A stretch of 64,000 nt of DNA from a virus, in the IMG/VR virus record IMGVR_UViG_3300029953_000018, positions 1 through 64,000 of that record, one strand, 5' to 3'. The notes beneath the pieces were generated by a model. It was not told where the DNA came from, did not search any database, and saw nothing but the letters and a program-made list of their open reading frames with translations. A program made the translations under genes and the position numbers. Positions 11,170 to 51,800 of this stretch are shown piece by piece; position 1 is the stretch's first letter; every line of letters starts with the position of its first letter.

Positions 11170-11597
11170 GGAAGTACCATCGGCGGGGGTACGTGATAGT
11201 TCGGGGTTACCTTGATAACCTCGTCAACGACATCCTTGGGGATTAGCCTTTTCTCAGCGGCCAGCTGAAGCTTCTTCGGATCGATTTTGTAGACGACCTT
11301 GTTGGTGATCGTTCCCCCTGCGGAGAGAAAGGCATCGTGTCCCACGGCCGCATAAAGAGCGTCGGCGTTCACGGTGGTGGTTTTTTGGTAGAACTCGAAG
11401 TCGCTGCAGGAGACACCGAGACCCCGCACGGCTTTCTCTGCATCTTCCCGCGTTGTGTTGTACGCTTCCAGCAAGCCATCAAGCACTAGAAAGAATGCTT
11501 GATTGGCTTGCTTGAATGCTTGCAGATTGCTCTTGGCGTTTTCAAACGCCGCCACTTCCGGGACCTTGCTTGAATCGACGTCGTTGTGTCTCACCAT
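11166..11597 (-). CDS. Hypothetical protein
   Basis: A 143-residue acidic/basic mixed protein that I do not recognise. Residues 15-70 look helical and amphipathic (AFENAKSNLQAFKQANQAFF, then LLEAYNTTREDAEKAV). It overlaps the uracil-DNA glycosylase stop by 7 nt and the next small gene by 4 nt. No zinc, membrane or nuclease motif was seen. Its place suggests a replication-associated accessory role only by association. Confidence 0.5.
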   Translation of the reverse strand: MVRHNDVDSSKVPEVAAFENAKSNLQAFKQANQAFFLVLDGLLEAYNTTREDAEKAVRGLGVSCSDFEFYQKTTTVNADALYAAVGHDAFLSAGGTITNKVVYKIDPKKLQLAAEKRLIPKDVVDEVIKVTPNYHVPPPMVLP

Positions 11598-15491: not shown

Positions 15492-15592
15492 AAACCTCCT
15501 CGGGGGCTAGCGGGGCTTGCCTCCAGTTCTCTTATGCCTGCGCTACCCGCTACTCTTTCGGCTATTACGGCGTGCTAGTTTGAGGGAGCGCT
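15492..15592. promoter_or_regulatory. Divergent intergenic region between early and late arms
   Basis: This 101-nt gap separates the minus-strand replication operon from the plus-strand virion arm, so promoters for both must lie in or near it. Visible elements are the minus-strand Shine-Dalgarno (GAGGAGG complement near 15495-15501) and the plus-strand GAGGGAG before the ATG at 15593. A TATTAC and a TAGTTT occur near 15563-15581, but no convincing -35/-10 pair was found. A phage-specific polymerase or sigma factor could use unrecognised signals here. Confidence 0.4.
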
Positions 15593-22793: not shown

Positions 22794-24062
22794 TTAGAGC
22801 TTTTGGCTCTTGTCGCACACCACTAGGTGTCCCCAGGGTGCCGGGCGTCGCGCGTAGGGGCTTCGCACGATGCACCAGATGACGTCTAATCCGCGAGGAG
22901 ATTTTGCGGGCGCTGTGCCATCGCCGTCGGTGTAGTAAACGAGCAGGTTAGCGTCGCGGTACTTCCTTCTTACGTAATCGAAAACTTTGGTGAAGTCCGT
23001 TCCTCCCCGGCCCTTGTAATCGATCTTTGGTAAGTCGCGTAGGCGAATACGCCGATCAGATTGAACGTAGACATCGACTTGAAGGTGCACTGCTTCTTCG
23101 ATGCCCACGCTGCGCATCAAGTGATACACCTCGCTGCGCGCGCTGAGGAGTTGCTTGTGGCCCATGGATCCCGAGGTGTCTTCGACCAAGACAACGTTGG
23201 GACGATGGTCCACCAATCCCGCGCAAAGCACACCTGCAAGCTGCCCTCCGACGCTGGGGTTTCGCATGGAGTAAACAGAGTTTCCGGCGATGTGCTCTGC
23301 GCTGCGTTGAATGAGGCGGCGGCAGAGCTTACGCCAATCCACTTCGGGCGCGTTGTAGCGCGCTTTGATCATTGTCTTGAAGCGCCCAGGGCCGTCGAGA
23401 GCCGCTTCAATCGCATCGAGGGTTTGTTGTTTGGCGCAGAGGACCTCGGCTTCATTCTTCCCGTAGGCGGCGTCGAGCGCCGCCTCGAGTTCTTTGTTTA
23501 CAGCGTGCCCTCCCCCGGAGCCACAACCGCCCGCGCCGATCTTGGGTTGCCAGGATGTGGCGGCTTGCTTCGGCTGCTTGCCGTCCATGAGCTGTTGCAG
23601 CGTTTTGTTTTTTCTCCGCAGCTCTTCCTCGAGCAGGCTGTAGTACTGCTCGAGGGTCAAGTTGGGGGGATGGTTGTAGGTCGAGGGGTAAATAACCCAG
23701 GAGGGCAATGGCCACTTTTCTTCTTGAAGGTTGAAGTTGATGGCTTCATCGGCGGCGATGCCCGCTAGGTTTTCATCGGGGAGGGCGATGACACGTTCAA
23801 AGCCGCGTAGAATGTGTTCACTCTCATGTACGAGGCAGCTGCCGATAACATCTTCTGCCTGAACTTCAGGATCGGACAGCAGCCAGGGGCCGTTAACGTA
23901 GAGCACCAAGCCCTGCGTAATGCCCATGGTGGTCCCCGGGACGTCAACCACTTCCACCACCATGTCGAGCAGGATCCCGTCATAGTAGTCGGCGCGAGAG
24001 TTGACGTAGGCACGTCCGAGGGAAAGGCGTGAGAGTGCCTCAGAGACGATAGAACGGTCCAT
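22794..24062 (-). CDS. VWA-domain protein with metallopeptidase-like N-terminus
   Basis: A 422-residue protein with an N-terminal HESEH (H79-H83, the HExxH zinc motif) followed by RGFERV and AADEAIN. It then has a charged linker and a C-terminal VWA domain. The MIDAS residues are visible in EDTSGSMG (DxSxS), GGTDFTKV and YYTDGDG. The layout matches the putative metallopeptidase-VWA proteins that partner with MoxR ATPases. The start overlaps the ATPase stop by one base (TGATG), so the two are translationally coupled. A chaperone-type complex acting on phage or host proteins is the usual expectation, but the target is unknown. Confidence 0.8.
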   Translation of the reverse strand: MDRSIVSEALSRLSLGRAYVNSRADYYDGILLDMVVEVVDVPGTTMGITQGLVLYVNGPWLLSDPEVQAEDVIGSCLVHESEHILRGFERVIALPDENLAGIAADEAINFNLQEEKWPLPSWVIYPSTYNHPPNLTLEQYYSLLEEELRRKNKTLQQLMDGKQPKQAATSWQPKIGAGGCGSGGGHAVNKELEAALDAAYGKNEAEVLCAKQQTLDAIEAALDGPGRFKTMIKARYNAPEVDWRKLCRRLIQRSAEHIAGNSVYSMRNPSVGGQLAGVLCAGLVDHRPNVVLVEDTSGSMGHKQLLSARSEVYHLMRSVGIEEAVHLQVDVYVQSDRRIRLRDLPKIDYKGRGGTDFTKVFDYVRRKYRDANLLVYYTDGDGTAPAKSPRGLDVIWCIVRSPYARRPAPWGHLVVCDKSQKL

Positions 24063-25303
24063 CAGGTAACCCCGATGTACTTTAGGTGCCCCTTGTCGTA
24101 GAGCAGGCCAGTGGTCTGCGCTACAGCTTCTTGAAGATGAGGGTCTGGATGGTTCCCGTCGTAATGGGCACGAAGTAACGTCTTCGCGGGGCGTGTACAG
24201 ACATCGGCGTAACCAAAGCTCGCCGCGTTGAACAGCAAGAGCCAGCAGCTAGTTGCCAGCTGCGCTCCCCTTACGGGGTCCGCTTCGTTAGCTACGTAAA
24301 TGGCGCACGAGGACAGCACCGTGCGTACAACATCGAGCTGCTTAGGAATCTGCCAGCCCTTCAGGAGTACGTCTTCGGGATTGGGCAAATTCAGCTTCTT
24401 CATGAAGACGGCCCAGTCGGCAGCGAGCCCTGCGCCGACCAGGCCCGCAACGACGTCGAGCTGGGTGCGCTCTCCTAATCCAAGGCAGCGGGCGGTGGTG
24501 ACGCCGTTGACAGCCCACGACCACGTACGGTGAGAAGGCCAGGGGCCCGCGGCGCGGGGGTCGTCTGCCTCTGGTTGGTCATAGAGGCGGTAGTGCTCCT
24601 TTCCATCATCCTCCCCCTCTCCCTTTTTCAGCTTGTAGGTGCCGCCCGACGACGCCAGAAAATCGTGGGTTACGCGTAATACAGCGCCGAAGTGAAGCCC
24701 CCAGTTGGCGCGAACGCGGGCTTCACTGTTGGTCAAATTGGGGATGTCGGGCTCGTACTCATCGTTCATGTATTCGTCCCATTGCTTCAGCGTAGGATTT
24801 GTGTACGCGTAGTGCAGTACGCGGTTAGCGAAGGGGATTTCAAGCTCTCGGCCGTTAGCTGCAATATCTGGGGGGTTCATTGCGAGAACAATGCGTACAC
24901 CCGGGGGCAGCTTGTACTCACCGATGGTGCGCTCATTCATCAAGGAGAGAAGCGCTGCCTGTACTGCGCGCGGCGCGGATGAAATCTCGTCGAGAAAAAG
25001 AATGGCACGTTCGTCGTTGATGGCAGCGCGAATCTGGGGCAGCGCGCATTCGAGAGAGAAGCCAACGGGCGTCATAACCGGGTAGCCCCCGATGTGCTCC
25101 GGGATCTTCGTGGAGGCGAAGATCGGGTAGACGTGCAAGCCCAGCATCTTTCCGATGGCGTAGATGCGCTCGCTTTTGCCAACGCCCGACCCTCCAATGG
25201 AGCATAAATTGATGCCCCAATTGCCTTCTTGGAAGGGCGCCATCGGCCCTTTGGCGAGCGGCGTGGACATGCTAGCCACCAGCAAACTCTCAAAGCGATC
25301 CAT
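24062..25303 (-). CDS. MoxR-type AAA+ ATPase
   Basis: From the ATG at 25303 the protein is 413 residues; an upstream TTG would add ten. Walker A is GGSGVGKS, Walker B is AILFLDEIS, and sensor 1 is IVLAMNPPD, followed by an arginine-finger region with FANRVLHYA. This order is the MoxR/BchI class. It lies directly before the VWA/metallopeptidase gene, the usual MoxR-VWA pairing. It presumably hydrolyses ATP to remodel a substrate together with the VWA partner. GAAAGAA precedes the chosen ATG. Confidence 0.85.
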   Translation of the reverse strand: MDRFESLLVASMSTPLAKGPMAPFQEGNWGINLCSIGGSGVGKSERIYAIGKMLGLHVYPIFASTKIPEHIGGYPVMTPVGFSLECALPQIRAAINDERAILFLDEISSAPRAVQAALLSLMNERTIGEYKLPPGVRIVLAMNPPDIAANGRELEIPFANRVLHYAYTNPTLKQWDEYMNDEYEPDIPNLTNSEARVRANWGLHFGAVLRVTHDFLASSGGTYKLKKGEGEDDGKEHYRLYDQPEADDPRAAGPWPSHRTWSWAVNGVTTARCLGLGERTQLDVVAGLVGAGLAADWAVFMKKLNLPNPEDVLLKGWQIPKQLDVVRTVLSSCAIYVANEADPVRGAQLATSCWLLLFNAASFGYADVCTRPAKTLLRAHYDGNHPDPHLQEAVAQTTGLLYDKGHLKYIGVT

Positions 25304-25592
25304 GTTGTTTTCTTTCTTCGATGAATGCGACAACGTCAGGACAAAAACGAGCCGGCATGGCCGTTTTCAAGAAACTACCCCGTACAACAAGAAACCCGTC
25401 TTCATCCGCCAAGGTGAAGGGCACGTAGAGTCCCCCGGGAATACGCACAGCTGTTTTGCGGTTCTCTGCTTCTTGTAAACTAGCCCTAAAAAGGGCGCGT
25501 AGCGCTTCGTCGTCGAGAGCGCTAGCGGCCTGCCAGCGCTCTCGAGCACGACGAAAGGCATGCGGGTCCACGAGAACGTGGGTCAACCGCAC
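25290..25592 (-). CDS. Hypothetical protein
   Basis: A 100-residue protein starting at GTG 25592 behind AGGAG. It is Arg/Ala-rich and helical in the first half (FRRARERWQAASALDDEALR) and has a beta-rich second half (YVPFTLADEDGFLVVRG). It overlaps the MoxR gene start by 14 nt. No family recognised. Probably a small soluble protein of the MoxR cluster. Confidence 0.5.
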   Translation of the reverse strand: MRLTHVLVDPHAFRRARERWQAASALDDEALRALFRASLQEAENRKTAVRIPGGLYVPFTLADEDGFLVVRGSFLKTAMPARFCPDVVAFIEERKQHGSL

Positions 25593-25601
25593 ACGGATCT
25601 C

Positions 25602-25853
25602 CTAGGCACTCTCGGTGGGCTCACTTTGCACAACGCGAATATCAATGCGCATGGGTTCTACCGCAGCGATTAGACCGAATAGAACGTTCAGCTCCCGTTG
25701 CTTGAGCAGTGAATCCTGCTCCTTGATGTCTTCAGTGCCTTCATACAGGCCGACGTTAACGCCGTATTCCTTAAGAAACCGGTAGAGAAGCTGCGCCAGC
25801 GTTCGTTTGTCGCTATGCGCTTTACCACTGACCGTTACCGTGAGTGTGTTCAT
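25602..25853 (-). CDS. Small protein resembling a truncated P-loop phage family
   Basis: An 83-residue protein with N-terminus LTVTVSGKAHSDKRTLAQLL. The position and helix context look like the Walker A region of a short phage P-loop family, but the usual GxxxxGKS/T is degenerate (GKAHSDKR). The rest is a helix and a beta hairpin ending in IDIRVVQSEP. It overlaps the upstream zinc protein stop by 4 nt (ATGA). ATP binding is doubtful because the lysine-serine pair is missing. Function unknown. Confidence 0.45.
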   Translation of the reverse strand: MNTLTVTVSGKAHSDKRTLAQLLYRFLKEYGVNVGLYEGTEDIKEQDSLLKQRELNVLFGLIAAVEPMRIDIRVVQSEPTESA

Positions 25854-26479
25854 GTATTCCTTCGTGCAATGCAGTACCCGGCCGCCCGGTTACAAGGCCC
25901 GTTGCGCCAGCAGCGCGTGGTGATTCCTTCCACGCATTCGTTGTTCTGTAGAATGTGCTCCCCGGTACCCCACAGCCCTTCCAAGAGGTTCAGGTTGATG
26001 TCGTTGCAGCATACGGAACAGATGTACTCAAAAGGCGGTATCGTAATAAAATCCAGGGCCCATTCGCGGTTGGGGGCGCGATCGGAAAGAACGAAGCTAC
26101 CGTCATAGACGATCCCCGTTTTTTCCCCCTGAAGAATGTCGGAGCCGCACCCTGTGCAAGCGGCCACAACAAATGCACCGCTTACGAGCACGGGAGGCTG
26201 GTCCTTGTAAATGTAGCGAAGGGTTGAGCGTGTTTCATCCCAGCAATCTTCATGCAGATAGTAGGGATGGTACTGATACTCGCCATCTGCGGCCAGAAGG
26301 GGCAGAGGTACTTCGAAGACCCGCCCACAGTCATCTTGCGTAACGTTCGCAATGACAATGTGCAGTAGACAAATTGGCGTCTCAGCCGCTACGAGTTTGC
26401 TGCAGCTGTTGCACACGTGGTCACTTTGCATGACGACGCGGTTCGCCAGTGTTTCCCTAGCCAGGCTGCTCATTGCCAT
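25850..26479 (-). CDS. Cysteine-rich zinc-binding protein
   Basis: A 209-residue protein with at least three Cys pairs: CNSCSKL near the N-terminus, ACTGCGSD near the middle and ICSVCCND further on. Later come single cysteines and an HEDCWDE segment. These suggest two treble-clef or ribbon zinc sites. It overlaps the next gene by 4 nt and the upstream gene by 10 nt. The fold class is unclear, and no catalytic residue is evident. Confidence 0.55.
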   Translation of the reverse strand: MAMSSLARETLANRVVMQSDHVCNSCSKLVAAETPICLLHIVIANVTQDDCGRVFEVPLPLLAADGEYQYHPYYLHEDCWDETRSTLRYIYKDQPPVLVSGAFVVAACTGCGSDILQGEKTGIVYDGSFVLSDRAPNREWALDFITIPPFEYICSVCCNDINLNLLEGLWGTGEHILQNNECVEGITTRCWRNGPCNRAAGYCIARRNT

Positions 26480-27081
26480 GTCATTACCTCCCGTTGAATG
26501 TGCAGCCAGCGTTTACTGAGCGCTTCGAGGCTCAAGTCGCGGGGGCACCCTAAGGGGTCGAAATCCCCCAAATAGGTATCGAGGAATTGTTCATCGACGC
26601 GCTCCCCCGTGTGCAAGTAACGTGGGAGATCAAAACCATGAAGCAACAAGTCAGATACGCGATAGTCATTTTGTTGGCGTAGTTCAAGCTCACGCAGAAA
26701 GAGATCGTCTTCAACGTCGTCTGGGTAGGCATGCAGCCCTACCCACCCACGGCGCCTATCTCCGATTTCGTAGCGTTCTTCTTGTGTCCAAGGATTGATG
26801 TCCCCCGGTTTTGCATCCCCGCAGAGTAATTCGAAGTCGAACTGCCCGATGAAAGACACGATTCCATATTGATCAACCACGCGCAGGCGCAGGGGGTCTT
26901 TGCTGCGCACAGAGCGCGTAAGAAGCGTGGTGCGCTCTTCGAGTACAGGGCACAGCGTGTTCTCAACGGTCCAGCGGCGCTGCGGCATGATGGGGTCTTG
27001 GAAGGTTCTACCCCACAGGCCCAATAGTGATGTTAATAGACGGGTGCCGGGAATGACTTCGAACTCTTTTGTTAGCGGCAC
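26470..27081 (-). CDS. Hypothetical protein
   Basis: About 203 residues from GTG 27081, which sits 8 nt after a strong AGAGGAGG. An upstream ATG at 27135 lacks such a site. The sequence is mixed with many charged residues and a late DLPRYLHTGERVDEQFLDT. No motif recognised. It shares 74 nt with the end of the small membrane gene upstream, which contains its ribosome site, so the two are probably coupled. Function unknown. Confidence 0.55.
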   Translation of the reverse strand: MPLTKEFEVIPGTRLLTSLLGLWGRTFQDPIMPQRRWTVENTLCPVLEERTTLLTRSVRSKDPLRLRVVDQYGIVSFIGQFDFELLCGDAKPGDINPWTQEERYEIGDRRRGWVGLHAYPDDVEDDLFLRELELRQQNDYRVSDLLLHGFDLPRYLHTGERVDEQFLDTYLGDFDPLGCPRDLSLEALSKRWLHIQREVMTWQ

Positions 27082-27196
27082 GACGAGCCTCCTCTTGGGG
27101 TAAAAAACCACTGTGGTCTGCGAGCCACCAGGCAATGCCCTGGAGAACGCCGACCACCGCGGCTAATAGGAAGAGGGGGACCTCTCCCTGTTTCAT
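27008..27196 (-). CDS. Small membrane protein
   Basis: A 62-residue protein. Residues about 7-25 (PLFLLAAVVGVLQGIAWWL) form one clear transmembrane helix, followed by a charged, Arg-rich tail (EEARRAANKRVRSHSR). It begins with ATGA overlap to the upstream 52-residue gene and contains the ribosome site of the next gene. A single-span anchor or spanin/holin-like role is possible, but no specific family fits. A short GTG-like gene boundary makes the 3' end less certain. Confidence 0.45.
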   Translation of the reverse strand: MKQGEVPLFLLAAVVGVLQGIAWWLADHSGFLPQEEARRAANKRVRSHSRHPSINITIGPVG

Positions 27197-27420: not shown

Positions 27421-30400
27421 ATGGCCTACCTCAATCCCAAGGAAGCGTTCGCCGACTTGAAGCAGAACGTCATCGAGGGGTTGCAAGCGCACTTCCCCAT
27501 CACGGGGTCAAAGCAGAGCATCCATCTCGAGGGCGTCGACGTGCGTGAGCACGCACGGGATTTCAATGATCTAACGGAGCAACACAAGGCCAAAGTCGAG
27601 GGGCGCTCCTGGACGGTACCGGTCTTTGGGGCGCTGGCTCTGAAGAACAATCAAACGGGAGAGGTCCTCGATCGAAAGAGCATTCAGCTGGCGGACTTGC
27701 CGTACATGACCCAGCGGCACGCCTACATCGTTGATGGGCGGGAATACCAGGTGGATAACCAGTGGCGCCTTAAGCCAGGCGTGTACACGCGCCGTAAAGA
27801 AGACGGGGAGCTGAAGTCTCAGTTCAACGTGCAGGGAAAGCGCCCCTTCGACATCACGTTGGATCCAGAGACCAAGGTTTTTTCCATGATACGCGGGGAC
27901 TCAAAGAACATCCCCGTCTACCCCCTCATGAAAGAGCTCGGTGTCGACGACGACACGCTTCAAGCATCCTGGGGGAAAGAGGTCTTGGCGGCGAACCGAG
28001 GCGCCCGCGCAGCGGGTACGGCGCTTGAGCGCTTCTACAAAGCTGACAAGAAGCGTGCACCGACGAGCACCGAAGAAGCGCGGCAGCACTTCATCGATAC
28101 GATGGAGGGTTCGAAGATACGCCCCGAGGTGACGCAGATAACGCTTGGGAAGCCCTATGACCACGTGAACGGGAATCTATTGCACGACGTTACGACCAAG
28201 ATGATTGGCGTGCAACGCGGCGAGATTCCTGAGGATGAGCGAGACAGCCTCGTCTTCAAGGATTTGCACACGGTGGCCGACTTCGCCAAGAAGGGCCTGA
28301 CCGACTGGAAGACGAAGAAAGCGCTCCAAGCGCGCACGGCACGTAAGATCAATACCGCCACCAGCATCCGCCAGGTGATTCACGGCAACATGTTCAGCAG
28401 GCCGGTTAAAGCTACATTCACCGAGAACGCGCTGGCGCGTACGGCCGATCAGGTCAACCCCGTCGAGATGCTGACTTCGAGCTTTCAAACGACCATCATG
28501 GGGCCCGGGGGAATCCAGAGCGACAACGCCATCAGTGAGTCGGCAAAGCTCATAAACCCTAGTCAAATCGGGTTTTTGGATTCCATACATACCCCCGAAG
28601 GGTCCAAAACTGGGGTAACTTTGCACCTTCCGATGGGTGTCATTAAACGCGGGAACACGCCTCTCATCCCGGTGTACAACCTGCGCACGCAGCAGATGGA
28701 CCACATTGATCCTGTGACGTACCACAAGTCCGTGGTGATGATGCCCGACCAGGTAACGTGGAATAAGAGCACGCCCATCCCCGTGGGTAAGCGCGTGATG
28801 GTGTCGCAGAAGGGCAACGAGCTGGTAGAGGCCGACGCTTCTTCCGCGGACTACGTGATGCGAAGCCCAAGTCAGCTTTTCAGCATGACTTCGAACTTGA
28901 TTCCTTTTCTAGGAAACAATTCAGGTAACCGCGCGAGCTACGCCACCCATCATATCGAGCAGGCGATCAGCCTGCACGATCGGGACGCTCCCCTAGTCCA
29001 ATCGGGAACAGGGCGGGCGACGGGTGTGCGTACCTTTGAAGAATTCATGGGACGGCAGTCTGCCCACATCGCGCCTACGGCGGGTACGGTGACAAAGGTC
29101 ACGGCCGACGCGATCACCGTGCAGGATAAGGAGGGTAAGGACCACCACGTCACCATCTACAACAACTTTCCCCTCAATGATCCAAAGGCAGTTCTTCATA
29201 GTACGCCGGCTGTAAAGGAGGGGGATGCGGTTACACCGGGGCAGCTTCTGGCCGATAACAACTTCACGCGCAATGGTCAGTTGGCACTCGGAAAGAACTT
29301 GCTGGTCGCCTACATTCCTTTTAAGGGACACAACTTCGAAGACGGCATCGCTATTAGCCAGACCGCCGCCGCCAAAATGGCGAGTGAGCACATGCATAAG
29401 CCGTCGATTACGTTGGGGCCTGATGCCATTACGGGCCTCGCGAAGTACAAGGCGTTGCACCCAACATCCTTCGAGACGCAGCAGCTAGAACACCTGGATG
29501 ACGCAGGGGTCGTACGCGTTGGTCAAACCGTGCGTACGGGCGATCCGCTGGTGGTGGCATCCCGCCCGTTTGACTCCAAGGGGTCGTACTCTCTGAGCAA
29601 GATTCGTAAGAGTCTAAGCAGTCAAACGCTGGACTCCAGCTTGACGTGGAAGAGTGAGCATCCCGGTGAAGTGGTGGGCATTCATCGAGATGAAGAGGGT
29701 AATGTCACCGTACATGTGCGCACCGTAGAGCCTATGCAAGTAGGCGATAAAATGTGTTACGACGAAGAAACGGAGATGCTTACCGCGCGCGGGTGGCTTC
29801 CAGTGGCGGATGTAACGTGTGCCGACGAAGTCTGCTCTCGTGTTGACGGGCACATTGTTTATCAAAGTCCCGATGCGGTTTTTGCTTACCCAACCGGCGG
29901 GCGTATGTACCGCATCAAAAGCCGGCAGGTCGACTTACTCGTTACCGATAAGCACGACATGTTTGTCAAGGAGCGGGGGGCCTCCGACTTTTTGTTGACG
30001 CCGGCGGCTACGCTTTTTGGTCGTCGCATTCGCTACGCCAAGAGTGGGCTCTGGCAAGGGCATGACCCGGAGTACATTGCCTTCCCCGCTCTGTGCGTTC
30101 GTGCCGGTCAGTACGGTAACGGTTCTCGGATGTTGCCCGAAGTACGGTTGCCCGTCTCGGTGTACTGCATGCTCTTGGGGGCCTACGTGTCTAACGGGCA
30201 CACGTTTGATCAGCCGGGGGACTACGGCATCGCCATTGACAAAGCAACGGGACCGCAATTCGAAGAACTGTGCCGTGCGCTAACCGAGGCGAACATCGCC
30301 TTCAGTCGTACGAACGGCGCGACCTGCTCCCGCGTTACCATCCATTCCAAGCAATGGCTTGAGCACTTTCGTGTTCTTGGGCGTGCACGCGTCAAGTACA

Positions 30401-33400
30401 TCCCGGAGCACATCTTCAGTTTTTCGCGGGACAGCCTCTGCATTCTCTTTAAGTGGTTGATGTGGGGGAATGGTTCTTCAATGATGACGGGGCGTCCTGT
30501 GGCGTACTTTACCTCGTCAAAACGTCTAGCCGATGATGTTCAGCGTTTGGCTCTGCACGTGGGCTACGCCGGTAACGTCCGTATTCACGCCGAGGAAGGG
30601 TGGCAAACGATCAAAGGTAAGCCCTCGTGGTGTGCGCGTTCCTACGAGGTGCGCATCGTTACAACGAAGCTGGAGCCTCAGGTTAATAACGGCCACGTAA
30701 AGAAGCAGCGTGCTCAAGAAGAATACTTCGTCGAGAACTACACCAAGCCGGTGTACTGCGTCCGTGTTCCCGGGCACGTTGTCTACGTTCGCCGAAACGG
30801 TAAAGCTGTTTGGTCGGGCAACTCGGGGCGTCACGGGAACAAGGGGGTCATCACCACTATCCTTCCCGACAAAGAGATGCCGCACACAGCGGACGGGCGT
30901 CCAATTGAAGTCGTCTTGAATCCTAGCGGCGTTCCCGGGCGCATGAACATGGGTCAGGTCTTGGAAACGGCGGCCGGTAAGATTGCAGAGAAGACGGGGC
31001 AGACCTACATCGTCAACAACTTCGAGCACGGTGTAGACCAACTCGATCGTGTGAAGAAGGCGCTCAAAGAACACGGGCTTACGGATACCGAAGAAGTAAT
31101 TGACCCCGTGAGTGGGCAATCCCTCGGTAAAGCTTTGGTAGGTCCTCAGCACCTTCTGAAGTTGAACTTTCAAATTGATAAGAAGGTGAGCGTGCGCTCT
31201 GGTATGCCTCTTGAGGGTGCCGAACCAGAGCATTATGATGCGGACACGCTCATTCCCGCGCAAGGGGGTAAGACGGGCGGGCAGTCCATGGGTAACCTGG
31301 GATTGTACGGGATGCTCGCGCACGGTGCGAAGCACAATATCCGGGAGATGCAGACTTGGAAGAGTGAGGGTGCGGATCGAAAAGAGCGTTGGGACAGCCT
31401 TCACAATGAAGTGTGGCGTGCCATTCAAACGGGGGAAACACCACCCCCTCCGAAGAAGACCTTCGCGTTCCAAAAGTTCGAGGACATGCTGACGGCTGCG
31501 GGTATCAACGTCACGAAGCGCGGGCATACACTTCAGTTGACTCCCCTCACCAATCAACAGATTCTCGCGCAAAGCGCGGGGGCGTTACCCAATCCGGGCT
31601 ACAGCGTCATTTCGAAGAAGGGTAAAGCAGGGGATGAGCCCGTCGCGCGTAAAGGCGGCGTCTTCGACCCCGCGATTACGGGAGGACATGGGGGGCAGAA
31701 CTGGTCGCACATTGTTCTTCCGGAGCCCGTCCCCAACCCCGTATTCGAGCATGCGATCCAGCGTGTTCTTGGCCTTAAAGAGGGGCAGTACGCGGACATC
31801 GTTAACGGTGAGGCCGCGGTTAAGGACGGCAAGGTTGTTCCCTTGGGAACAGAGGGCTCTAAAGCGGGGGGTGCCGCCATCGCGCATATGCTGGGTGAGC
31901 TCGACGTAAAAGAGGAGCTCAAGAAAGCTAAGGACGCTCTCGACAAGCTCAAGGTACCCGCGAACCTCGCGCATCGAGATGTTACTCCAAAACTTGATCA
32001 GCTTTCGAAGCAGGTGCGCTACCTGTCCACTTTGGACAAGGCAGGGATTCATCCAAAGGACGCCTACGTTCTCGAAAACCTGCCCGTGATCCCACCCATC
32101 ATGCGGCCCGCAAGTTTTTTGCCGAACGGTAACGTACACGAAGCGGATCTGAACAGCTTGTACACGCGCGCTGGGCAGCTCGCGTCCGCAATGCAATCCC
32201 CCAACTACAAGTACTTGAGCGACCATGACAAGAAGGAGGATCGCTTCAATTTGTACGACAGCGTGAAAGCGCTCATGGGGGTGGGGGAAGATTGGGCGAC
32301 CCGGGGCAAGCAAGGCAAGGGAGTGCTCCTTCAAATCGCGGGCTCTGCACCCAAAGAAGGTTACTTCCAGAATACGCTCTTATCGCGTCGTCAAGACATG
32401 ACCATGCGCGCCACCATCACGCCAGATGCATCCATGGGGCTTGACCAGGTGGGCCTACCGGAAAAGAAGGCGCTCGACTTGTTCCGCCCGTTTGTAGTGA
32501 ACAAGCTGCAAGAAATCGGAGCCGCTAGTACACCACGGGAAGCGCATGCGCTTTTGTCTGAACCGGGGAAGAAAGATCCCGCGGTGTACCAGGCGCTCGA
32601 TAAGGTGATGGCGGAGCGCCCCGTGCTGCTCAAGCGCGATCCGGTACTGCACAAGCACGGCGTGCAAGCTTTTTGGCCGCAGCGCGTCCCGGGGAAAGCC
32701 ATTCAGATTCACCCCTTAACTACCGGGGGCTTCACGGCCGATTTCGACGGCGACACCATGGCACTCTACGTACCCATCGGGCGCGACGCTGTTGAAGAAG
32801 CCAAGGGCATGGTGCCTTCCCGAAATGTATACAACGAAGCCAGCGGCAAGGTTATTTACCAGCCGAGTCTGGAAGCCAGCCTGGGCTTGTTCAAACTCTC
32901 GCGTGTTACAGGGGATAGCGGAAAGACATTCGACTCCCATGCCGCCTTACTCAAAGCGGCACAAGCGGGAAAGCTGACGGTGACCGAAACCGCAACGGTC
33001 GATGGGAAGCCCACGACGGCCGGGCGTATCTTGTTGGCGTCCGCCGTTCCGGAATCGATGCAGCACGACATGTTGCACAACATGAATCTGTCCTTGAATA
33101 AAAAGGGTACGGATCGCGTGTACACGCAGATCGCCAAGGAACACAAGGCCGCTTTCGCGGATTCGGCGGTCAAGCTGATGCGCCTCGGGTACGACGCCGC
33201 CTTCGGTGTTCTCAAGATCCCTAACCCGGCAACGCAGGGAACGGCGGCGGCTGTCGAGAAAGATGGGGAACACCCCAAGGACAACGTTCAGTACTTGCCT
33301 ATGGGTACGCATTCCTTGAGCTTGAACGACTTTACGCCGGACAAGGCCACGCGGGATACTATCGTGGCGGCTGCAACTAAAAAGGTGGAACAGATCAATG

Positions 33401-34968
33401 CGCGCACGGATCTTAGTGACGCCGAGCGAGAACAGCATGTGGTCAACACCTGGCACGATGCAACGGACCAGATGCTGAAAGAGCATGATACGAAGATGAC
33501 GGCCAATCCCAATAACCTGTACCTGATGCAGCAAGCGGGTGTGAAGCCGGGGCCTATTCAATACCGGCAGCTTCGCCTGGCCCCGATGCTCATGGTGGAC
33601 AGCCAGAACCGTGTGATTTCGACGCCGGTAACGAAGAGTTACTCCGAGGGGTTGGACGTGAGCTCCTACTGGACGCAGATGGCCGGTGCGCGCCGAGGAT
33701 CAGTACTCAAAGTTCAAGAGGTGCGCGAACCGGGGTACTTTACGAAGAAGCTCATCAACGTAACGATGGGCCTACAGGTTACGAAGCATGATTGCGGTAC
33801 GGATAACGGGCTGCACTTGCCTATCCACTCCCAGGATATCTTTGACCGTACTCTGGCACAGGAACACACCATTGGGGGTGTGACGTACGCGAAGGACACG
33901 GTGATTACGCCGCAGGTAGCGTCCACAATCAAAGCCGCGGATAAGAACGCAACTTTGTTGGTCCGCTCAACATTGAAGTGCGACAACGGAACCGGCGTTT
34001 GTCAGAAGTGCGCGGGCCTGGCGCCCGATGGGCAGCATTATTCCTTGGGAACGAACGTTGGGATTTTGGCTACGCAAGCTCTTGGGGAACGCGCTACTCA
34101 GCTCACGCTCAAAGCTTTTCATGGAGGCGGTGTAGCGGAGCGTGGCGCAAACTTGGTCAACGATTTTATTCGCGTCCAGCAGTTGACGTCTCTGCCCAAG
34201 GAAATCCCGAACGCGGCGCGTTTGGCTGCGAAGGATGGTGTGGTTGAGAAAATTGAAGAAGATCCCACGGGTCACGTGGCGTGGATTGGTGGCGTCAAGC
34301 ACCACATCGCCAACGATGATCAGGGTAACCCGCTCTTCAAACCGCTCCCTGGGCAGACCGAGTCCACCTTACCCGGGGGCACGAAGTGGACGGGGTTGCA
34401 AGTCGGTATGAAGGTGCGCGCGGGAGACCCTTTGACGGATCCGGCGCGCACCTATGTCAATCCCCATGACTTGTACGCCGTCACGGGAAGTATGGCTCAA
34501 GTGCAAAACCACTTGGTGACGGAGCTGCATGACATTTACGGTCGCGAGGGCGTTCGCCGTCAGAACACGGAGACTGTGGTGCGCGCCCTTAGCGACCTGA
34601 CCCGTGTCATTAACCCCGGGGATCATGAAACCATGATCAAGGGACAGTACGCGTCGCGTGCCAAAGTGCAAGAAGCCAACCGACAGCTTATAGCGCAGGG
34701 TCTTCAGCCGATTCAGCACACGCCGATTATGAAAGGTATCAGCGTGATGCCCCTTGAGGTACAAGAGGATTGGATGGCCAAGTTGAACCATGAGCGCTTG
34801 CGGGATCCAGCGCAGGGACTGCCCGCGAGTGCCGCCCTCGGGGCTTCCTCTGATCTGCACGGGAACAACCCGGTAGCAGGCATGGCTTACGGAGCCGAGT
34901 TTGGAATGACCAACGTCAACGTCTTCGACAAGCCGCACCTTAAAGACGTCGCGTCCCACGCATACTGA
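27421..34968 (+). CDS. rpoBC: Fused beta-beta-prime multisubunit RNA polymerase with intein
   Basis: A 2515-residue chain (about 2159 after removal of a 356-residue intein) carrying both large RNA polymerase subunits. The beta part shows GFLDSIHTPEG, GKNLLVAYIPFKGHNFEDGI and, after the intein, GRHGNKGV with IVLNPxGVPxRMN-like VLNPSGVPGRMNMG. It ends near residue 1376 with a beta C-terminal helix, and the beta-prime part follows directly: LPVIPPIMRP, a GKQGKG switch region, the catalytic TADFDGDTM (D1774, D1776, D1778), a bridge helix with MAGARRGSV and a trigger loop LTLKAFHGGG. The second beta-prime zinc site keeps its Cys (DCGT, KCDN, VCQKC). The beta-prime N-terminal zinc domain appears deleted. 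It is co-oriented with virion genes and overlaps the spike gene by one base. It may transcribe phage genes early from the virion or late; no alpha, omega or sigma is visible here. Confidence 0.93.
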   Translation: MAYLNPKEAFADLKQNVIEGLQAHFPITGSKQSIHLEGVDVREHARDFNDLTEQHKAKVEGRSWTVPVFGALALKNNQTGEVLDRKSIQLADLPYMTQRHAYIVDGREYQVDNQWRLKPGVYTRRKEDGELKSQFNVQGKRPFDITLDPETKVFSMIRGDSKNIPVYPLMKELGVDDDTLQASWGKEVLAANRGARAAGTALERFYKADKKRAPTSTEEARQHFIDTMEGSKIRPEVTQITLGKPYDHVNGNLLHDVTTKMIGVQRGEIPEDERDSLVFKDLHTVADFAKKGLTDWKTKKALQARTARKINTATSIRQVIHGNMFSRPVKATFTENALARTADQVNPVEMLTSSFQTTIMGPGGIQSDNAISESAKLINPSQIGFLDSIHTPEGSKTGVTLHLPMGVIKRGNTPLIPVYNLRTQQMDHIDPVTYHKSVVMMPDQVTWNKSTPIPVGKRVMVSQKGNELVEADASSADYVMRSPSQLFSMTSNLIPFLGNNSGNRASYATHHIEQAISLHDRDAPLVQSGTGRATGVRTFEEFMGRQSAHIAPTAGTVTKVTADAITVQDKEGKDHHVTIYNNFPLNDPKAVLHSTPAVKEGDAVTPGQLLADNNFTRNGQLALGKNLLVAYIPFKGHNFEDGIAISQTAAAKMASEHMHKPSITLGPDAITGLAKYKALHPTSFETQQLEHLDDAGVVRVGQTVRTGDPLVVASRPFDSKGSYSLSKIRKSLSSQTLDSSLTWKSEHPGEVVGIHRDEEGNVTVHVRTVEPMQVGDKMCYDEETEMLTARGWLPVADVTCADEVCSRVDGHIVYQSPDAVFAYPTGGRMYRIKSRQVDLLVTDKHDMFVKERGASDFLLTPAATLFGRRIRYAKSGLWQGHDPEYIAFPALCVRAGQYGNGSRMLPEVRLPVSVYCMLLGAYVSNGHTFDQPGDYGIAIDKATGPQFEELCRALTEANIAFSRTNGATCSRVTIHSKQWLEHFRVLGRARVKYIPEHIFSFSRDSLCILFKWLMWGNGSSMMTGRPVAYFTSSKRLADDVQRLALHVGYAGNVRIHAEEGWQTIKGKPSWCARSYEVRIVTTKLEPQVNNGHVKKQRAQEEYFVENYTKPVYCVRVPGHVVYVRRNGKAVWSGNSGRHGNKGVITTILPDKEMPHTADGRPIEVVLNPSGVPGRMNMGQVLETAAGKIAEKTGQTYIVNNFEHGVDQLDRVKKALKEHGLTDTEEVIDPVSGQSLGKALVGPQHLLKLNFQIDKKVSVRSGMPLEGAEPEHYDADTLIPAQGGKTGGQSMGNLGLYGMLAHGAKHNIREMQTWKSEGADRKERWDSLHNEVWRAIQTGETPPPPKKTFAFQKFEDMLTAAGINVTKRGHTLQLTPLTNQQILAQSAGALPNPGYSVISKKGKAGDEPVARKGGVFDPAITGGHGGQNWSHIVLPEPVPNPVFEHAIQRVLGLKEGQYADIVNGEAAVKDGKVVPLGTEGSKAGGAAIAHMLGELDVKEELKKAKDALDKLKVPANLAHRDVTPKLDQLSKQVRYLSTLDKAGIHPKDAYVLENLPVIPPIMRPASFLPNGNVHEADLNSLYTRAGQLASAMQSPNYKYLSDHDKKEDRFNLYDSVKALMGVGEDWATRGKQGKGVLLQIAGSAPKEGYFQNTLLSRRQDMTMRATITPDASMGLDQVGLPEKKALDLFRPFVVNKLQEIGAASTPREAHALLSEPGKKDPAVYQALDKVMAERPVLLKRDPVLHKHGVQAFWPQRVPGKAIQIHPLTTGGFTADFDGDTMALYVPIGRDAVEEAKGMVPSRNVYNEASGKVIYQPSLEASLGLFKLSRVTGDSGKTFDSHAALLKAAQAGKLTVTETATVDGKPTTAGRILLASAVPESMQHDMLHNMNLSLNKKGTDRVYTQIAKEHKAAFADSAVKLMRLGYDAAFGVLKIPNPATQGTAAAVEKDGEHPKDNVQYLPMGTHSLSLNDFTPDKATRDTIVAAATKKVEQINARTDLSDAEREQHVVNTWHDATDQMLKEHDTKMTANPNNLYLMQQAGVKPGPIQYRQLRLAPMLMVDSQNRVISTPVTKSYSEGLDVSSYWTQMAGARRGSVLKVQEVREPGYFTKKLINVTMGLQVTKHDCGTDNGLHLPIHSQDIFDRTLAQEHTIGGVTYAKDTVITPQVASTIKAADKNATLLVRSTLKCDNGTGVCQKCAGLAPDGQHYSLGTNVGILATQALGERATQLTLKAFHGGGVAERGANLVNDFIRVQQLTSLPKEIPNAARLAAKDGVVEKIEEDPTGHVAWIGGVKHHIANDDQGNPLFKPLPGQTESTLPGGTKWTGLQVGMKVRAGDPLTDPARTYVNPHDLYAVTGSMAQVQNHLVTELHDIYGREGVRRQNTETVVRALSDLTRVINPGDHETMIKGQYASRAKVQEANRQLIAQGLQPIQHTPIMKGISVMPLEVQEDWMAKLNHERLRDPAQGLPASAALGASSDLHGNNPVAGMAYGAEFGMTNVNVFDKPHLKDVASHAY
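29755..30822 (+). mobile_element. Intein in RNA polymerase beta, degenerate homing endonuclease
   Basis: The intein spans residues 779-1134 (356 aa), between GDKM and SGRHGNKG, the conserved catalytic-lysine region of beta. It starts with CYDEETEMLTARGW and ends in VRRNGKAVWSGN, with Ser as the +1 residue. The two LAGLIDADG positions read GAYVSNGHT (N925) and LMWGNGSS (N1017), where Asp/Glu normally sits before the final Gly. Both catalytic acids are therefore Asn, suggesting the endonuclease is dead while splicing residues remain. Boundaries are inferred from intein block patterns and the continuity of flanking beta sequence. Confidence 0.85.
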
Positions 34969-36248
34969 TGGGCCGCTACATCACCGATCCCCATACGGAT
35001 GCGCGTACGCCGCTCGAGCGTACCAGCATGCGCAGTTCGTGGACGCAGCCCCACGGGGCTTCGCCCGCGTTTATTCACGAATCTCGCGTCTTAGACTTTA
35101 ATTTGGCCACCTGGACCGTCGATGTACGCTCTCAGTTTGACCAGAAGTTCTACCCGAACATTCAGGTTGCGGGCCCTTACCTTCATCCTAATCGCGGAGA
35201 AGGTTGGTCGGTTGTTCCCGAAGTGAACGCAAAGTGCGTGGTATGTTTACCCAGTGACGGGCCCCCGCCTTTTGTGCTGGCTTTCATCATGCCTATGGAG
35301 ACCCCCGAGGATCCCTCCTCGAGCGCTGCGGCAGAAGACGCAGCGGATACCACAGGTACTAACCAGGGTGCGGTTTTCTCTGGAGGTCGTGCACGGGGTA
35401 AGCCCGGGGACATGATATGGCAAGGGCGGGACGGCAACTTCGTGATTATGCATCGCGGGGGCGTTCTCCAGGTGGGGTCGACGGAGCTCGCCCAGCGCAT
35501 TTACATACCGCTCGGCAATATCATTACGGACATCAGTCAAAACTACGAGCATCACAATACTGGGGGTTCCATTAACTGGGGACTGTCCACAAGCTACACC
35601 GACGATAATCCTCAGACCGAGTTTCGTCAGACGTTCCGGTTGTTTGCCAACGATGCCCAGGCGGATCTACGCATTGCTGTTGGGCAAGTGCATCAGCCTG
35701 TTCCAGAACCTTCGGGGGATGCAGGCGAGACCTCGAACAACACGGCGATGGGTGTAGGGGCCGACACTATCGTTGCTGAGTTCGTGATCGCACCGGCCGG
35801 CTTCAACGTGGAAGCGGGTTCGCCGGTGAGCGGCGTAGAGAACCTGACCAAGTTGAAGATGTTTTTTGACCGGTCAGGGTCTGGGTTCTTGCGCGCTGAA
35901 GCAAGCGTCAACATCCGCGTCAAAAATCAACTTCGTATTACGGCAGATCAGGGGATGACGCTGACCTCGGGTAAGTCACTGCAATTGCAGGCGACAGAAA
36001 ATCTACGGTTGGTGGGAAGTACTGGGGTTCAGATTACGTCGGATAAGGGCGCGGTAACCATTAACGGAGGGGACACCCCCGTGGCCACCGTCGGCTCAGC
36101 GGTGAGCATTGTTATCGCAACGCCCGTACCTATTATCCTGAGCGCACCCGTACCGGGGACGCCAGGTGTCATCTCAGCGGGCGCGATGTTCACCGGCTTT
36201 ATCACCAACGGATCCAGCACGGTGTTGGTCCCGGGGCCGCAAGGCTAA
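34968..36248 (+). CDS. Baseplate spike/gpV-like protein
   Basis: A 426-residue protein. The N-terminal about 130 residues include a five-strand OB-like region (LATWTVDVRSQFDQKF, then PYLHPNRGEGWSVVP and KCVVCLPSDG) typical of baseplate gpV/gp5 hubs. A central acidic and Gly-rich linker follows. The C-terminal part repeats short beta strands (VNIRVKNQLRITADQG, LQLQATENLRLVG, VQITSDKGAVTING) as in a beta-helix tail spike. It starts with one-base overlap (TGATG) to the RNA polymerase stop. It likely pierces the host outer layer under the baseplate. Confidence 0.7.
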   Translation: MGRYITDPHTDARTPLERTSMRSSWTQPHGASPAFIHESRVLDFNLATWTVDVRSQFDQKFYPNIQVAGPYLHPNRGEGWSVVPEVNAKCVVCLPSDGPPPFVLAFIMPMETPEDPSSSAAAEDAADTTGTNQGAVFSGGRARGKPGDMIWQGRDGNFVIMHRGGVLQVGSTELAQRIYIPLGNIITDISQNYEHHNTGGSINWGLSTSYTDDNPQTEFRQTFRLFANDAQADLRIAVGQVHQPVPEPSGDAGETSNNTAMGVGADTIVAEFVIAPAGFNVEAGSPVSGVENLTKLKMFFDRSGSGFLRAEASVNIRVKNQLRITADQGMTLTSGKSLQLQATENLRLVGSTGVQITSDKGAVTINGGDTPVATVGSAVSIVIATPVPIILSAPVPGTPGVISAGAMFTGFITNGSSTVLVPGPQG

Positions 36249-40698: not shown

Positions 40699-40963
40699 GA
40701 GCAAACTCCACGTGCTCTCTTGTGAAACGTACATGCACGGCGCGCCAGCCAAGCCCCAAAGCAACCTGTCGGATAATGGCGCGGATGGACGTGTGTAGGT
40801 CCTTGGGCAATGAGGCAATCTGAAGCTTGGCGTGGTGCTCGCGTTTCTTGTCGTCGGTATCGAGGGACCAGCCACCAGGAAAGTGAGGGCCGCCGGAGCT
40901 CAACCAGCGCCAAACTTCCTGAAGGGCCTCTTGGGGGTCGGCTGTTTCTTCTTGAGGTTCCAT
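40571..40963 (-). CDS. Hypothetical minus-strand protein divergent from terminase
   Basis: A 130-residue frame on the minus strand. It fills the 263-nt space before the large terminase and overlaps the preceding plus-strand gene at its 3' end. The sequence is charged, with KREHHAKLQIASLPKDLH and a helical VALGLGWRAVHVRFTREHVEF, and an Arg/Gln-rich tail. Its ATG shares the CATG with the terminase ATG on the other strand. No ribosome site is seen. It could be a real antisense-oriented gene or a fortuitous frame. Confidence 0.4.
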   Translation of the reverse strand: MEPQEETADPQEALQEVWRWLSSGGPHFPGGWSLDTDDKKREHHAKLQIASLPKDLHTSIRAIIRQVALGLGWRAVHVRFTREHVEFALKPYRVEVRQVQEAQREVFRQAARRKREGTRTNPEGGQTPAP

Positions 40964-42737
40964 GGGTAACGCAGCTTTAGCCTACGATGACGATGATCTG
41001 GACGACACGTGGGATGGGGAAGAACCCTGGACACCCGAAGTCTTACCCGAGGAAGAGCCCCTTGAAGTAACCGCGCTTCAAAAGGTTGCGCCCGTCTTAC
41101 CCATGATGCGCCCGTCACAATTCACGGCGCGGGCGTTCGTCCTACCAAAGGATGATGGAATGGGGTCAGGTCCTTTCTCTTTCAAAGGGAGACGGCATCT
41201 TCCTCGCCTTTACGATACGCCCGCACGCCGCGTTCTTCTATGCTGCGCACGACAAGTTGAAAAGTCGACAGCGTTAGGTAACCGCGCGCTGTGTTACTCA
41301 GCGCTCGTTCCTTCCATCCGCATTCTATACGTGAGCCCCTCGGGGTCGCAGACCAAAAACTTCTCACGGGATCGTATTAAGGAGCCTATCGAGACCAGCG
41401 AGCTTTTGCGCCAATTCACGACGCGCATGCTGTCGCAAAACGTCTTCGATAAGCAGTTCATCAACCGGTCGATGATCACGATGCGCTACGCGTATCTGAA
41501 TGCAGACCGCGCCCGCGGTATCCCCGCCTGGCAGCTTTACTTGGATGAGATCCAGGATATTTTGCGCAGTTGCATCCCTGTTCTTGAGCAGTGCACGTCC
41601 CACGCACCCGATCGATGGAAGAGCTTTGTGTACGCCGGTACACCGAAGAGCCTCGACAACGTAATCGAGGAATACCGGGCCAATAAAAGCACGCAGGGGG
41701 AGTGGGTTGTTCCTTGCGAAGGGTGTAACACGTGGAACGTCCTCGGCGAGAAGAACATTGGTAAGAAGGGGCCCATTTGTAGCAAGTGCGGTAAGGCGAT
41801 TGACCCGCAAGGAGAGCGCGCCCAGTGGGCCTGGATGGTTACGCCGGATGAAGAGCGTATCCATGTTCCCTTTGAGAGCTACCGCATTTCGCAGTTGATG
41901 GTGCCTTGGAAGATTCGAAACTGGCACGAAGTTCTGCACGACTACGTTAACCATCCCCGCGCGCAGTTCATGAACGAATGCCTCGGCATTTCGTTTGAGT
42001 CGGGGACCCGGCCGCTAAATCAAGCGCAGCTTCGCGTGCAGTGCGGTACGCACTCCATGAGCGAGCTTGAATCCTTGCGGCATCGCTCCTTGGCGGAGCC
42101 TTTTTTCTTTGGCGTGGATTGGGGGTCTGGGGATAGCGCTTACACAGTTCTGACCATCGCGACGTACGTGAACGATCGCTTTCGGGTGATCTTCATGCAC
42201 CGCTTCGTCGGCGAGGATGCGGACCCCGACGTTCAGGTTAAGAAGATTATCGAGATGGGGCATCACTTCAACGTGGCCACCATCGGTGCCGACCGTGGGT
42301 ATGGCTTTGGTATGAACAGCCGCCTTGTACGCGCTTTTGGTAACAAACGCGTTCATCAATTTCAGCACTTGGGCAAGCTTACGAAGAAGGTGATCTTCGA
42401 TCCCAAGTTGATGTACTGGAAGATGCACCGCACCGCGGTGATGAGCGATATCTTCGAGGCTATTAAAAAAGGCAAGGCGGAGTTTCCCCGATGGGATGAG
42501 TTCAAGAAGCCTTATGCCGAAGACTTCACGAGCATCTACAGTGAGTACAACGAACGCCTACGAATGATCCAATACGACCATAAGCGTGGGAGCCCTGACG
42601 ATTCATTTCATTCGTTTATGTACGCGTGGCTTTCCTCTATGATCATGATCCCACGCCCGGACATCATTGCGCCGTCGCAGGAAAGCGAAGACGGTAAAGT
42701 GCTATCGCCTTACACGGGCCCCGTTTATCAGGGCTAA
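40962..42737 (+). CDS. terL: Terminase large subunit
   Basis: A 591-residue DNA-packaging motor. The ATPase has Walker A ARQVEKST (96-103) and Walker B LYLDEIQD with D195/E196. The nuclease domain has FFFGVDWGSGDSAY (D386), IGADRGYGFG and DDSFHSFMYAW, the RNase H-like acidic triad. Between them lies a zinc ribbon with C252, C255, C273 and C276. The N-terminus is acidic. A TTGAGG precedes the ATG. The gene ends in a 4-nt overlap with a convergent minus-strand gene. It cuts concatemers and drives DNA into proheads through the portal. Confidence 0.95.
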   Translation: MGNAALAYDDDDLDDTWDGEEPWTPEVLPEEEPLEVTALQKVAPVLPMMRPSQFTARAFVLPKDDGMGSGPFSFKGRRHLPRLYDTPARRVLLCCARQVEKSTALGNRALCYSALVPSIRILYVSPSGSQTKNFSRDRIKEPIETSELLRQFTTRMLSQNVFDKQFINRSMITMRYAYLNADRARGIPAWQLYLDEIQDILRSCIPVLEQCTSHAPDRWKSFVYAGTPKSLDNVIEEYRANKSTQGEWVVPCEGCNTWNVLGEKNIGKKGPICSKCGKAIDPQGERAQWAWMVTPDEERIHVPFESYRISQLMVPWKIRNWHEVLHDYVNHPRAQFMNECLGISFESGTRPLNQAQLRVQCGTHSMSELESLRHRSLAEPFFFGVDWGSGDSAYTVLTIATYVNDRFRVIFMHRFVGEDADPDVQVKKIIEMGHHFNVATIGADRGYGFGMNSRLVRAFGNKRVHQFQHLGKLTKKVIFDPKLMYWKMHRTAVMSDIFEAIKKGKAEFPRWDEFKKPYAEDFTSIYSEYNERLRMIQYDHKRGSPDDSFHSFMYAWLSSMIMIPRPDIIAPSQESEDGKVLSPYTGPVYQG

Positions 42738-50678: not shown

Positions 50679-51800
50679 ATGGCATCGGCACGGCAAGTCA
50701 ACGATCTGTTCAACACACGCCTCGGCGAACCCGGGGGCAAAGAAAAGCTCGCCCAGTTTGGCGGCTCTTACATTCGCGATCGTCTTCGCGAGGTTTCGTT
50801 CGTTCGCAAGATCGTGCCCCCGGAGCAGGTTACGCGTACGGACTGCCAGCGTTCAACGCGGCATGACACGCTGGTCAAGATCGTCGACATCGAGCCCAAG
50901 AGCCGGGCCATGGCGATCAGCTTCCGGGGACAGCCCACGGCCCGGTTTATCCGGGGTGAGCGCGCCGAGGTAGCTTTCTTCACGATCAGCTCGGAGGTCT
51001 TTCAGAAGACCGAACAAGAGCTACTAGCGTATGAGATGCCCATCACCAAGATCATCGAGGAGAATTCGGTGAAGGACATCCAGGAGATCGAGGATCGCGA
51101 GTTCGTCATCCATATCGAAGCCGCGGTTCAGGCGCTTCAGCAGGAAGCCAACGGTGGAACGATCGTGTCGTTGAACGCTTCAGCTCTTCAAGGCAGTGCG
51201 CCTCCGGTCGAGTTCTCGGTTCGTAAGGGGGAGCTTGCGCGCGCCGCCAATACGAACGACGCGGTAATCCGCCCGGTTCAGCGCAAGGACATCGTGGAGG
51301 GCTTCAAGATCATCGACGGAAGACGCCTGCGGTGCGCACGCTTCCTTCTGACCGAAACTGACTTCGACGATGTCCTGTCCTGGACCGTGGAAGACACCGG
51401 CGATCGGATTCAGTCGGAGACCACCGTCGACGGGTACAAGTACAATTTGCTCGTGGGCCGCCCGTACATCCGGACTGTGAAGACCGACATCCTGCGCCGT
51501 GGGAACATCTACTTCTTCGCGGAACCCGAGTTCTTCGGGAAGTTCTACGTGCTTAACCAGACCAAGTTCTACATCGACAAGGTCGCCAACACGATCACCT
51601 TCCAGGCATGGGAGGACATCGCGATGGCGGTCATCAACATCGCCAGCGTTGGCAAGATCGAGCTCTACTCGGCGGACGCTACGGCCAACGATGAGGACAC
51701 GCTGCTCGACAACTTCATTCCGGTGGCTGAGGATAGCCTTGGCGCCATCAACAACCGCGTGAACGAAGGGCTCAAATTCCCCCAGATCGTCGCCAATTAA
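50679..51800 (+). CDS. Major capsid protein
   Basis: A 373-residue HK97-type capsid candidate, preceded by AAGGAGAATC. It has an N-terminal helix (VNDLFNTRLGEPGGKEKL), the typical spine segment (EIEDREFVIHIEAAVQALQQEA), and late beta strands (YNLLVGRPYIRTVKTD, FFAEPEFFGKFYV). Codon use seems biased to C-ending codons compared with neighbours, which fits high expression. It lacks KTA motifs. It is followed by an intrinsic terminator. Confidence 0.8.
   Translation: MASARQVNDLFNTRLGEPGGKEKLAQFGGSYIRDRLREVSFVRKIVPPEQVTRTDCQRSTRHDTLVKIVDIEPKSRAMAISFRGQPTARFIRGERAEVAFFTISSEVFQKTEQELLAYEMPITKIIEENSVKDIQEIEDREFVIHIEAAVQALQQEANGGTIVSLNASALQGSAPPVEFSVRKGELARAANTNDAVIRPVQRKDIVEGFKIIDGRRLRCARFLLTETDFDDVLSWTVEDTGDRIQSETTVDGYKYNLLVGRPYIRTVKTDILRRGNIYFFAEPEFFGKFYVLNQTKFYIDKVANTITFQAWEDIAMAVINIASVGKIELYSADATANDEDTLLDNFIPVAEDSLGAINNRVNEGLKFPQIVAN

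Follow-up and report, generated by a model that had tools for sequence, protein, structure and literature searches.

Several kinds of multi-subunit-type RNA polymerase (RNAP) have been described in phages. Those of the phiKZ/AR9 type, homologous to the cellular enzyme and devoid of alpha and omega, consist of four or five chains and come as two sets per phage (PMC7598289). In a comparative study of jumbo phages, phages with phiKZ-like RNAPs had no recognisable sigma, and sigma factors were found in phages without an RNAP (PMC7824862). The crAss-like RNAP, YonO and P23-45 gp96/gp64 carry both catalytic barrels on one chain, and some of these enzymes are packaged in the virion (PMC10770324). Deep-branching phage beta and beta-prime subunits have also been reported from the multi-subunit RNAP-encoding Caudovirales, or mReC (Weinheimer and Aylward 2020, PMC7481178), in a paper that mentions fusion for crAssphage only and mentions neither inteins nor virions. 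The bacterial alpha2-beta-beta-prime-omega enzyme has separate alpha and omega subunits and an N-terminal zinc domain in beta-prime, whereas none of the three was detected in the clade described below. Helicobacter and Wolbachia possess a fused rpoBC, which is cellular and accompanied by alpha; it shares with our locus the covalent beta-beta-prime fusion and the bacterial type of enzyme, and is set beside it here by description.

The window, by which we mean the whole 64,000-nucleotide stretch of viral DNA analysed, encodes a polymerase (Table 1) that was compared with each of these systems. Unlike the split phiKZ/AR9 enzymes, it is one chain and one set, and its clade combines an RNAP with a recognisable sigma. 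Unlike the highly diverged crAss-like, YonO and P23-45 enzymes, the crAss/YonO type being hard to pick up with cellular RpoB/RpoC profiles, it has strong Pfam matches in canonical domain order (Rpb2 domains 3, 6 and 7, followed by Rpb1 domains 1, 2, 4 and 5), and a plain sequence search of the PDB with the window protein reaches bacterial beta-prime at 1e-94. Four of these matches (Rpb2 domains 3 and 6, Rpb1 domains 2 and 5) exceed the curated Pfam cut-offs. The preliminary description of this DNA had set the enzyme apart from the phiKZ/AR9 type as split and from the crAss-like type as highly divergent. It had also read the locus as one 2515-residue frame with the hallmark motifs of both large subunits (GRHGNKG and TADFDGD), fused in canonical-like fashion near residue 1376, 2159 residues long without its intein, lying in a phage virion cluster and overlapping a co-oriented baseplate spike gene. 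All of this held up, and the analysis adds to it a clade of at least 62 loci, cultured relatives that are partly re-split, the link to mReC (2020) and a conserved sigma70-like partner.

Table 1. Positions of the polymerase gene, its parts and neighbouring features in the window
Feature	Position	Strand	Basis or remark
Putative P1-like promoter core GGCATAAG	15531..15538	-	~40 nt upstream of leftward replication operon; sequence match
Portal protein gene, 1132 aa	19021..22419	+	Arash homologue annotated as portal
Four genes between portal and RNAP: HNH-like, ATPase, two of no assigned function	22794..27135	-	
Single-chain beta-beta-prime RNA polymerase	27421..34968	+	Uninterrupted frame, 2515 codons; Pfam and PDB matches
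Beta part 1, residues 1-778, to DKM of the active-site motif	27421..29754	+	Pfam, alignment; homologous L035 region folds like bacterial RpoB
Predicted intein, residues 779-1134 (356 aa)	29755..30822	+	Starts CYDEETEML, ends ..VVYVRRNGKAVWSGN, then Ser; weak LAGLIDADG match
Beta part 2, residues 1135 to ~1370: GRHGNKG motif and beta C-terminus	30823..31530	+	Pfam, alignment
GRHGNKG motif, residues 1136-1142	30826..30846	+	
Approximate beta/beta-prime junction, residues ~1370-1380	31528..31560	+	Joint alignment with rpoB/rpoC
Beta-prime part, without first zinc domain; second four-Cys zinc site and catalytic loop kept	31561..34965	+	
Catalytic TADFDGD, residues 1772-1778	32734..32754	+	Relatives mostly NADFDGD
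Spike/baseplate-like gene directly 3' of RNAP	34968..36248	+	DUF2345 below cut-off; 1-nt overlap
Terminase large subunit	40962..42737	+	
Major head protein, phrog_2522	50679..51800	+	

In a joint alignment with rpoB and rpoC, the rpoB of two bacterial species stops at residue 1013-1014 of the intein-free numbering, and the joint falls at residues ~1369-1380 of the window protein. About 32 residues of the N-terminal beta-prime zinc domain are missing in every aligned phage form, and the four cysteines of the second zinc site are conserved among relatives. Both halves of the active site can be recognised, the basic beta-barrel motif as DKM and SGRHGNKG once the intein is omitted, and the DxDxD loop of the beta-prime barrel as TADFDGD. 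The first residue of that loop is a near-universal Asn, replaced by Thr in the window and by Gly in its close relatives. The Asn of NADFDGD helps discriminate ribonucleotides from deoxyribonucleotides. Structure prediction, with beta modelled on the intein-free relative L035, recovered both folds: residues 1-1092 of L035 (mean pLDDT 81) match RpoB over their full length (E 6e-70, TM 0.70), and the moderate beta-prime model, window residues 1135-2330 (mean pLDDT 71), matches RpoC (E 2e-47) with a modest TM-score, as would be expected for a part modelled without its partners. The linker is of low confidence in the models.

The insert in the beta portion lies between DKM and SGRHGNKG, that is, inside the active-site motif. 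It is in frame, starts with Cys1 and ends in Asn followed by Ser, and its insertion site is empty in most relatives. By these features it should splice itself out of the motif to leave a core of 2159 residues; insert-free forms of the single-chain RNAP measure 2061-2217 residues. Intein-like inserts also occur at three further RNAP sites among relatives (L018, L025, L029, L030, L044, L056, L070 and L075), the commonest being inside the catalytic NADFDGD loop. Their final residue is mostly Asp, not Asn; L025 and L029 moreover have Asn in place of the last catalytic Asp preceding the insert. Other genes carry inserts as well. The portal gene of the window has an intein-like one of 445 aa that starts with C and ends with N, then T; portal inserts in relatives occupy this site and two others, and several terminase genes have inserts resembling the window RNAP intein in sequence.

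An assembly error or chimera was ruled out as the source of the fusion by identical independent records and dozens of divergent relatives. The RNAP gene recurs with 100% identity in five further IMG/VR records, and the record from which the window comes (84,497 bases) matches a segment of the 167,481-base record G001 at 99.99% identity, so that a missed stop or frameshift between the halves, which the preliminary description had named as grounds for abandoning the fusion, is unlikely. Host contamination was likewise ruled out by the phage genes surrounding the RNAP, which include those for portal, terminase, major head protein, UvsX, DNA polymerase, primase and helicase.

Counting the window and its five copies, the polymerase is one frame of at least 2000 codons at 62 loci. 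The frame is intact in dozens of lineages (~40 below 85% identity), and 40 single-chain rows entered the tree after near-copies above 85% identity had been dropped. By tblastn, the nearest cultured phages are Vibrio phages D69, D148 and D181 and Salmonella phage Arash, with ~30% identity to the window protein. They belong to the same clade, fuse beta to the start of beta-prime and have the portal gene next to the RNAP, but the C-terminal part of beta-prime, joined in the window, is separate in them: Arash and D69 have a chain of 1525-1546 aa for beta and the first part of beta-prime, and a gene of ~610 aa for the remainder. A third form (L109-L124) comprises three chains, namely beta with ~100 beta-prime residues (~1115-1225 aa), a 385-aa catalytic piece and a 610-aa piece; because the cut falls within beta-prime, the fusion is kept here too. 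In a quick LG+G4 tree, rooted on bacterial enzymes and those of Cobetia phage Carin-5 and with long branches flagged by the program, the single-chain type forms one clade, and the three-chain type forms one clade nested beside the Arash type. The simplest reading would be one ancient fusion followed by cuts, the fusion being ancestral and the cuts secondary. No second RNAP set was found; each record has one RNAP, and extra matches came from inteins or from other stretches of that gene. The polymerase gene of Vibrio phage D181 is interrupted by a homing endonuclease gene (L002, 9513-10462), and that of the related phage D69 (L003) is intact.

The clade resembles mReC in comprising tailed phages from IMG/VR-type data with alignable, deep-branching beta and beta-prime near virion genes, and the two sets may have some contigs in common. 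Membership by capsid was rejected, the mReC capsid family PF07068 (Gp23-type) being absent from all 16 clade genomes searched (T4 control positive); in the original study, only 8 of the mReC contigs yielded a capsid protein (PMC7481178). Under the mReC filter for NADxDGD, the TADFDGD of the window would fail and the NADFDGD of most relatives would pass. Within the literature covered, which included few subscription journals and preprints, we came across no description of a phage with a canonical beta-beta-prime fusion, alone or with a sigma partner, and no paper on phage Arash. Related phage polymerases are thus already known (mReC, phiKZ, crAss-like), and the fused architecture with its sigma partner is apparently unreported, the absence of a report being no proof.

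The preliminary description had proposed searching for alpha, omega and sigma-like proteins, a search that was positive for sigma and negative for the other two. Alpha (PF01193) and omega (PF01192) were over the Pfam cut-off in 0 of 20 records, with controls positive in 13 of 14 and 14 of 14 cases respectively; either subunit would have escaped this search if it had diverged beyond the reach of the Pfam profiles. A sigma70-family protein of ~250 aa, on the other hand, accompanies the RNAP in 22 of 24 records, of both the single-chain and the re-split types. The family was traced from one weak repeated match, and a five-member alignment was then searched in the 24 records. The two records without it are the window's fragment, whose longer near-identical counterpart G001 does have the gene, and G002, which may be partial. 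Similarity extends over sigma regions 2-4: the Sigma70_r2 profile is positive in some genomes, region 3 is over the cut-off in three of four family members, region 4 is weak, and a profile search of the PDB with the family finds SigA at 1e-12. The same small family is present in Arash and D69, and the Arash copy, annotated as a sigma factor, sits among structural genes. Besides this protein, Arash and D69 each have an RpoD-like sigma factor.

A bipartite promoter-like motif, CAA followed after ~16 nt by GGnATAAG, recurs before non-structural genes in several of these genomes. The motif emerged from Arash, D69 and G017 only, the other genomes being scanned afterwards. Upstream GGnATAAG sites, observed over expected, number 21/3.0 in Arash, 19/3.1 in D69, 11/1.7 in G017, 7/1.2 in G009 and 7/1.1 in G005; since the pattern was loosened after matches in G001, G005 and G009, counts for these three lean upward. 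The same script gave 1 site against 1.2 expected in T4, where it recovered that phage's own late TATAAATA (23 against 2.4 expected). CAA stands 19-20 nt upstream of the GG in 30 of 86 upstream sites from seven genomes, most other spacings occurring about once; three of the seven (Arash, D69 and G017) had supplied the weight matrix. The distribution over strands is uneven. Sites of the GGTATAAG/GTTATAAG type precede leftward, non-structural genes in Arash and D69, and none was found before rightward, mostly structural genes in the upstream-region sets of the two phages; the non-structural strand carries all upstream motif sites in D69 and nearly all in Arash. A genome-wide scan of Arash returned one rightward site, at 11,588, a short distance ahead of the sigma gene. 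The motif is weak in the phage to which the window belongs (G001), with 2 strict-core sites against 1.0 expected and no clear promoter motif in plain word counts; the matrix finds 4 sites of at least 10 bits there against ~0.05 in shuffles, and one of the 4 is the site ~40 nt ahead of the window's leftward replication operon. These patterns suggest that the phage polymerase reads the CAA-GGnATAAG motif, which host RNAP could also use because TGGTATAAG resembles an extended -10 element.

Whatever the type of locus, a portal homologue is almost always found upstream of the RNAP, and the adjoining spike-like gene, whose homologue in L063 matches the baseplate hub/tail lysozyme phrog_430, is conserved in the single-chain clade. 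Further genes, terminase and the major head protein follow it on the 3' side. In Arash, the sigma and RNAP genes are both in the virion half. The four leftward genes between portal and RNAP are a feature of the subclade to which the window belongs; no such genes were found at this position in other subclades.

There is a possible explanation that joins these observations, and we consider it somewhat likelier to be right than wrong: the locus would encode a single-chain, alpha-free, sigma-dependent phage RNAP that reads the bipartite motif and is carried in the virion for the next infection. It is built on the fusion, the intein, the family relationships, the loss of the first zinc domain, the conserved sigma and the motif enrichment, all read from sequence, and from these we infer splicing, activity, sigma-core pairing, motif recognition and packaging. 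The bacterial enzyme relies on an alpha dimer to unite beta with beta-prime. With no alpha detected in these phages, that task probably falls to the covalent joint, which the re-split relatives have retained as well, while the small sigma70-family protein would supply promoter recognition, most likely at CAA-(~16 nt)-GGnATAAG. Because the RNAP gene (in Arash the sigma gene too) sits in the virion module and the promoters drive other genes, the enzyme is probably made late and carried in the particle to begin transcription once the next cell is infected. Packaging, already suggested in the preliminary description, is consistent with gene position and promoter distribution; location in a virion module is no proof of it, and this least certain step seems to us evenly balanced between true and false. 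More tentative still is a wider picture, possible though we would sooner doubt than accept it, of a widespread phage lineage with a two-protein apparatus in which the fusion replaces alpha, sigma reads a phage-specific promoter, the packaged enzyme gives a start free of host RNAP, and the re-split relatives show how multi-chain enzymes originate by breakup.

A non-virion enzyme, rather unlikely in our view, would be made during infection, at first from host-transcribed mRNA, and would transcribe middle or late genes with the phage sigma, leaving early genes to host RNAP. P23-45 and phiKZ do have non-virion enzymes (PMC10770324, PMC7598289), and with one RNAP per record something else must transcribe the remaining genes. 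A second motif, TAAAATA, points the same way: it stands before genes in Arash (12/15, expected 1.0) and D69 (17/32, expected 2.3), mostly structural ones in D69. However, the single-chain genomes tested showed no TAAAATA ahead of their genes, the GGnATAAG core occurs in single-chain and re-split types alike and belongs to non-structural genes, and the location of both sigma and RNAP genes in the virion half of Arash speaks against a non-virion enzyme. TAAAATA precedes rightward genes of Arash (L158-L167) and D69 (L168-L177), among them the separate beta-prime C-terminal gene of Arash.

It is improbable that the sigma-like protein instead recruits host RNAP, with the fused polymerase using another specificity factor or none. 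In jumbo phages of group 2, sigma factors are believed to work with host RNAP (PMC7824862), and some of the present genomes have the further RpoD-like sigma, but the small family co-occurs with the RNAP across both types. That the polymerase is degraded or inactive and kept for another, structural purpose is barely credible: the Thr in TADFDGD and the inteins in active-site motifs would suit it, but the three catalytic Asp, GRHGNKG and the zinc cysteines are all kept in a frame that has stayed intact across lineages.

If the packaged, sigma-dependent enzyme is real, a close relative of bacterial RNAP would have been pared down to a single core chain with one sigma. In so simple a system one could examine the roles of alpha, omega and the beta-prime zinc domain, and test if fusion is able to stand in for alpha during assembly. 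The enzyme would also bridge the gap between the split phiKZ enzymes and the very divergent crAss-like ones, with a fused-then-cut series within a single clade, and the cultured relatives (Arash on Salmonella, D69 on Vibrio) would permit direct tests.

One contig binned as Deltaproteobacteria (L157) contains a relative of the fused enzyme at 52% identity; it is probably phage DNA in a bacterial bin, a weak hint of a host that is unusable for host assignment. Many RNAP matches in the phage collection are bacterial contigs. AGRM01000005, AFYI01000006 and several OR84xxxx records, filed as phages, apparently carry ordinary bacterial rpoB-rpoC, and records of this kind should be excluded from surveys of phage RNAPs.
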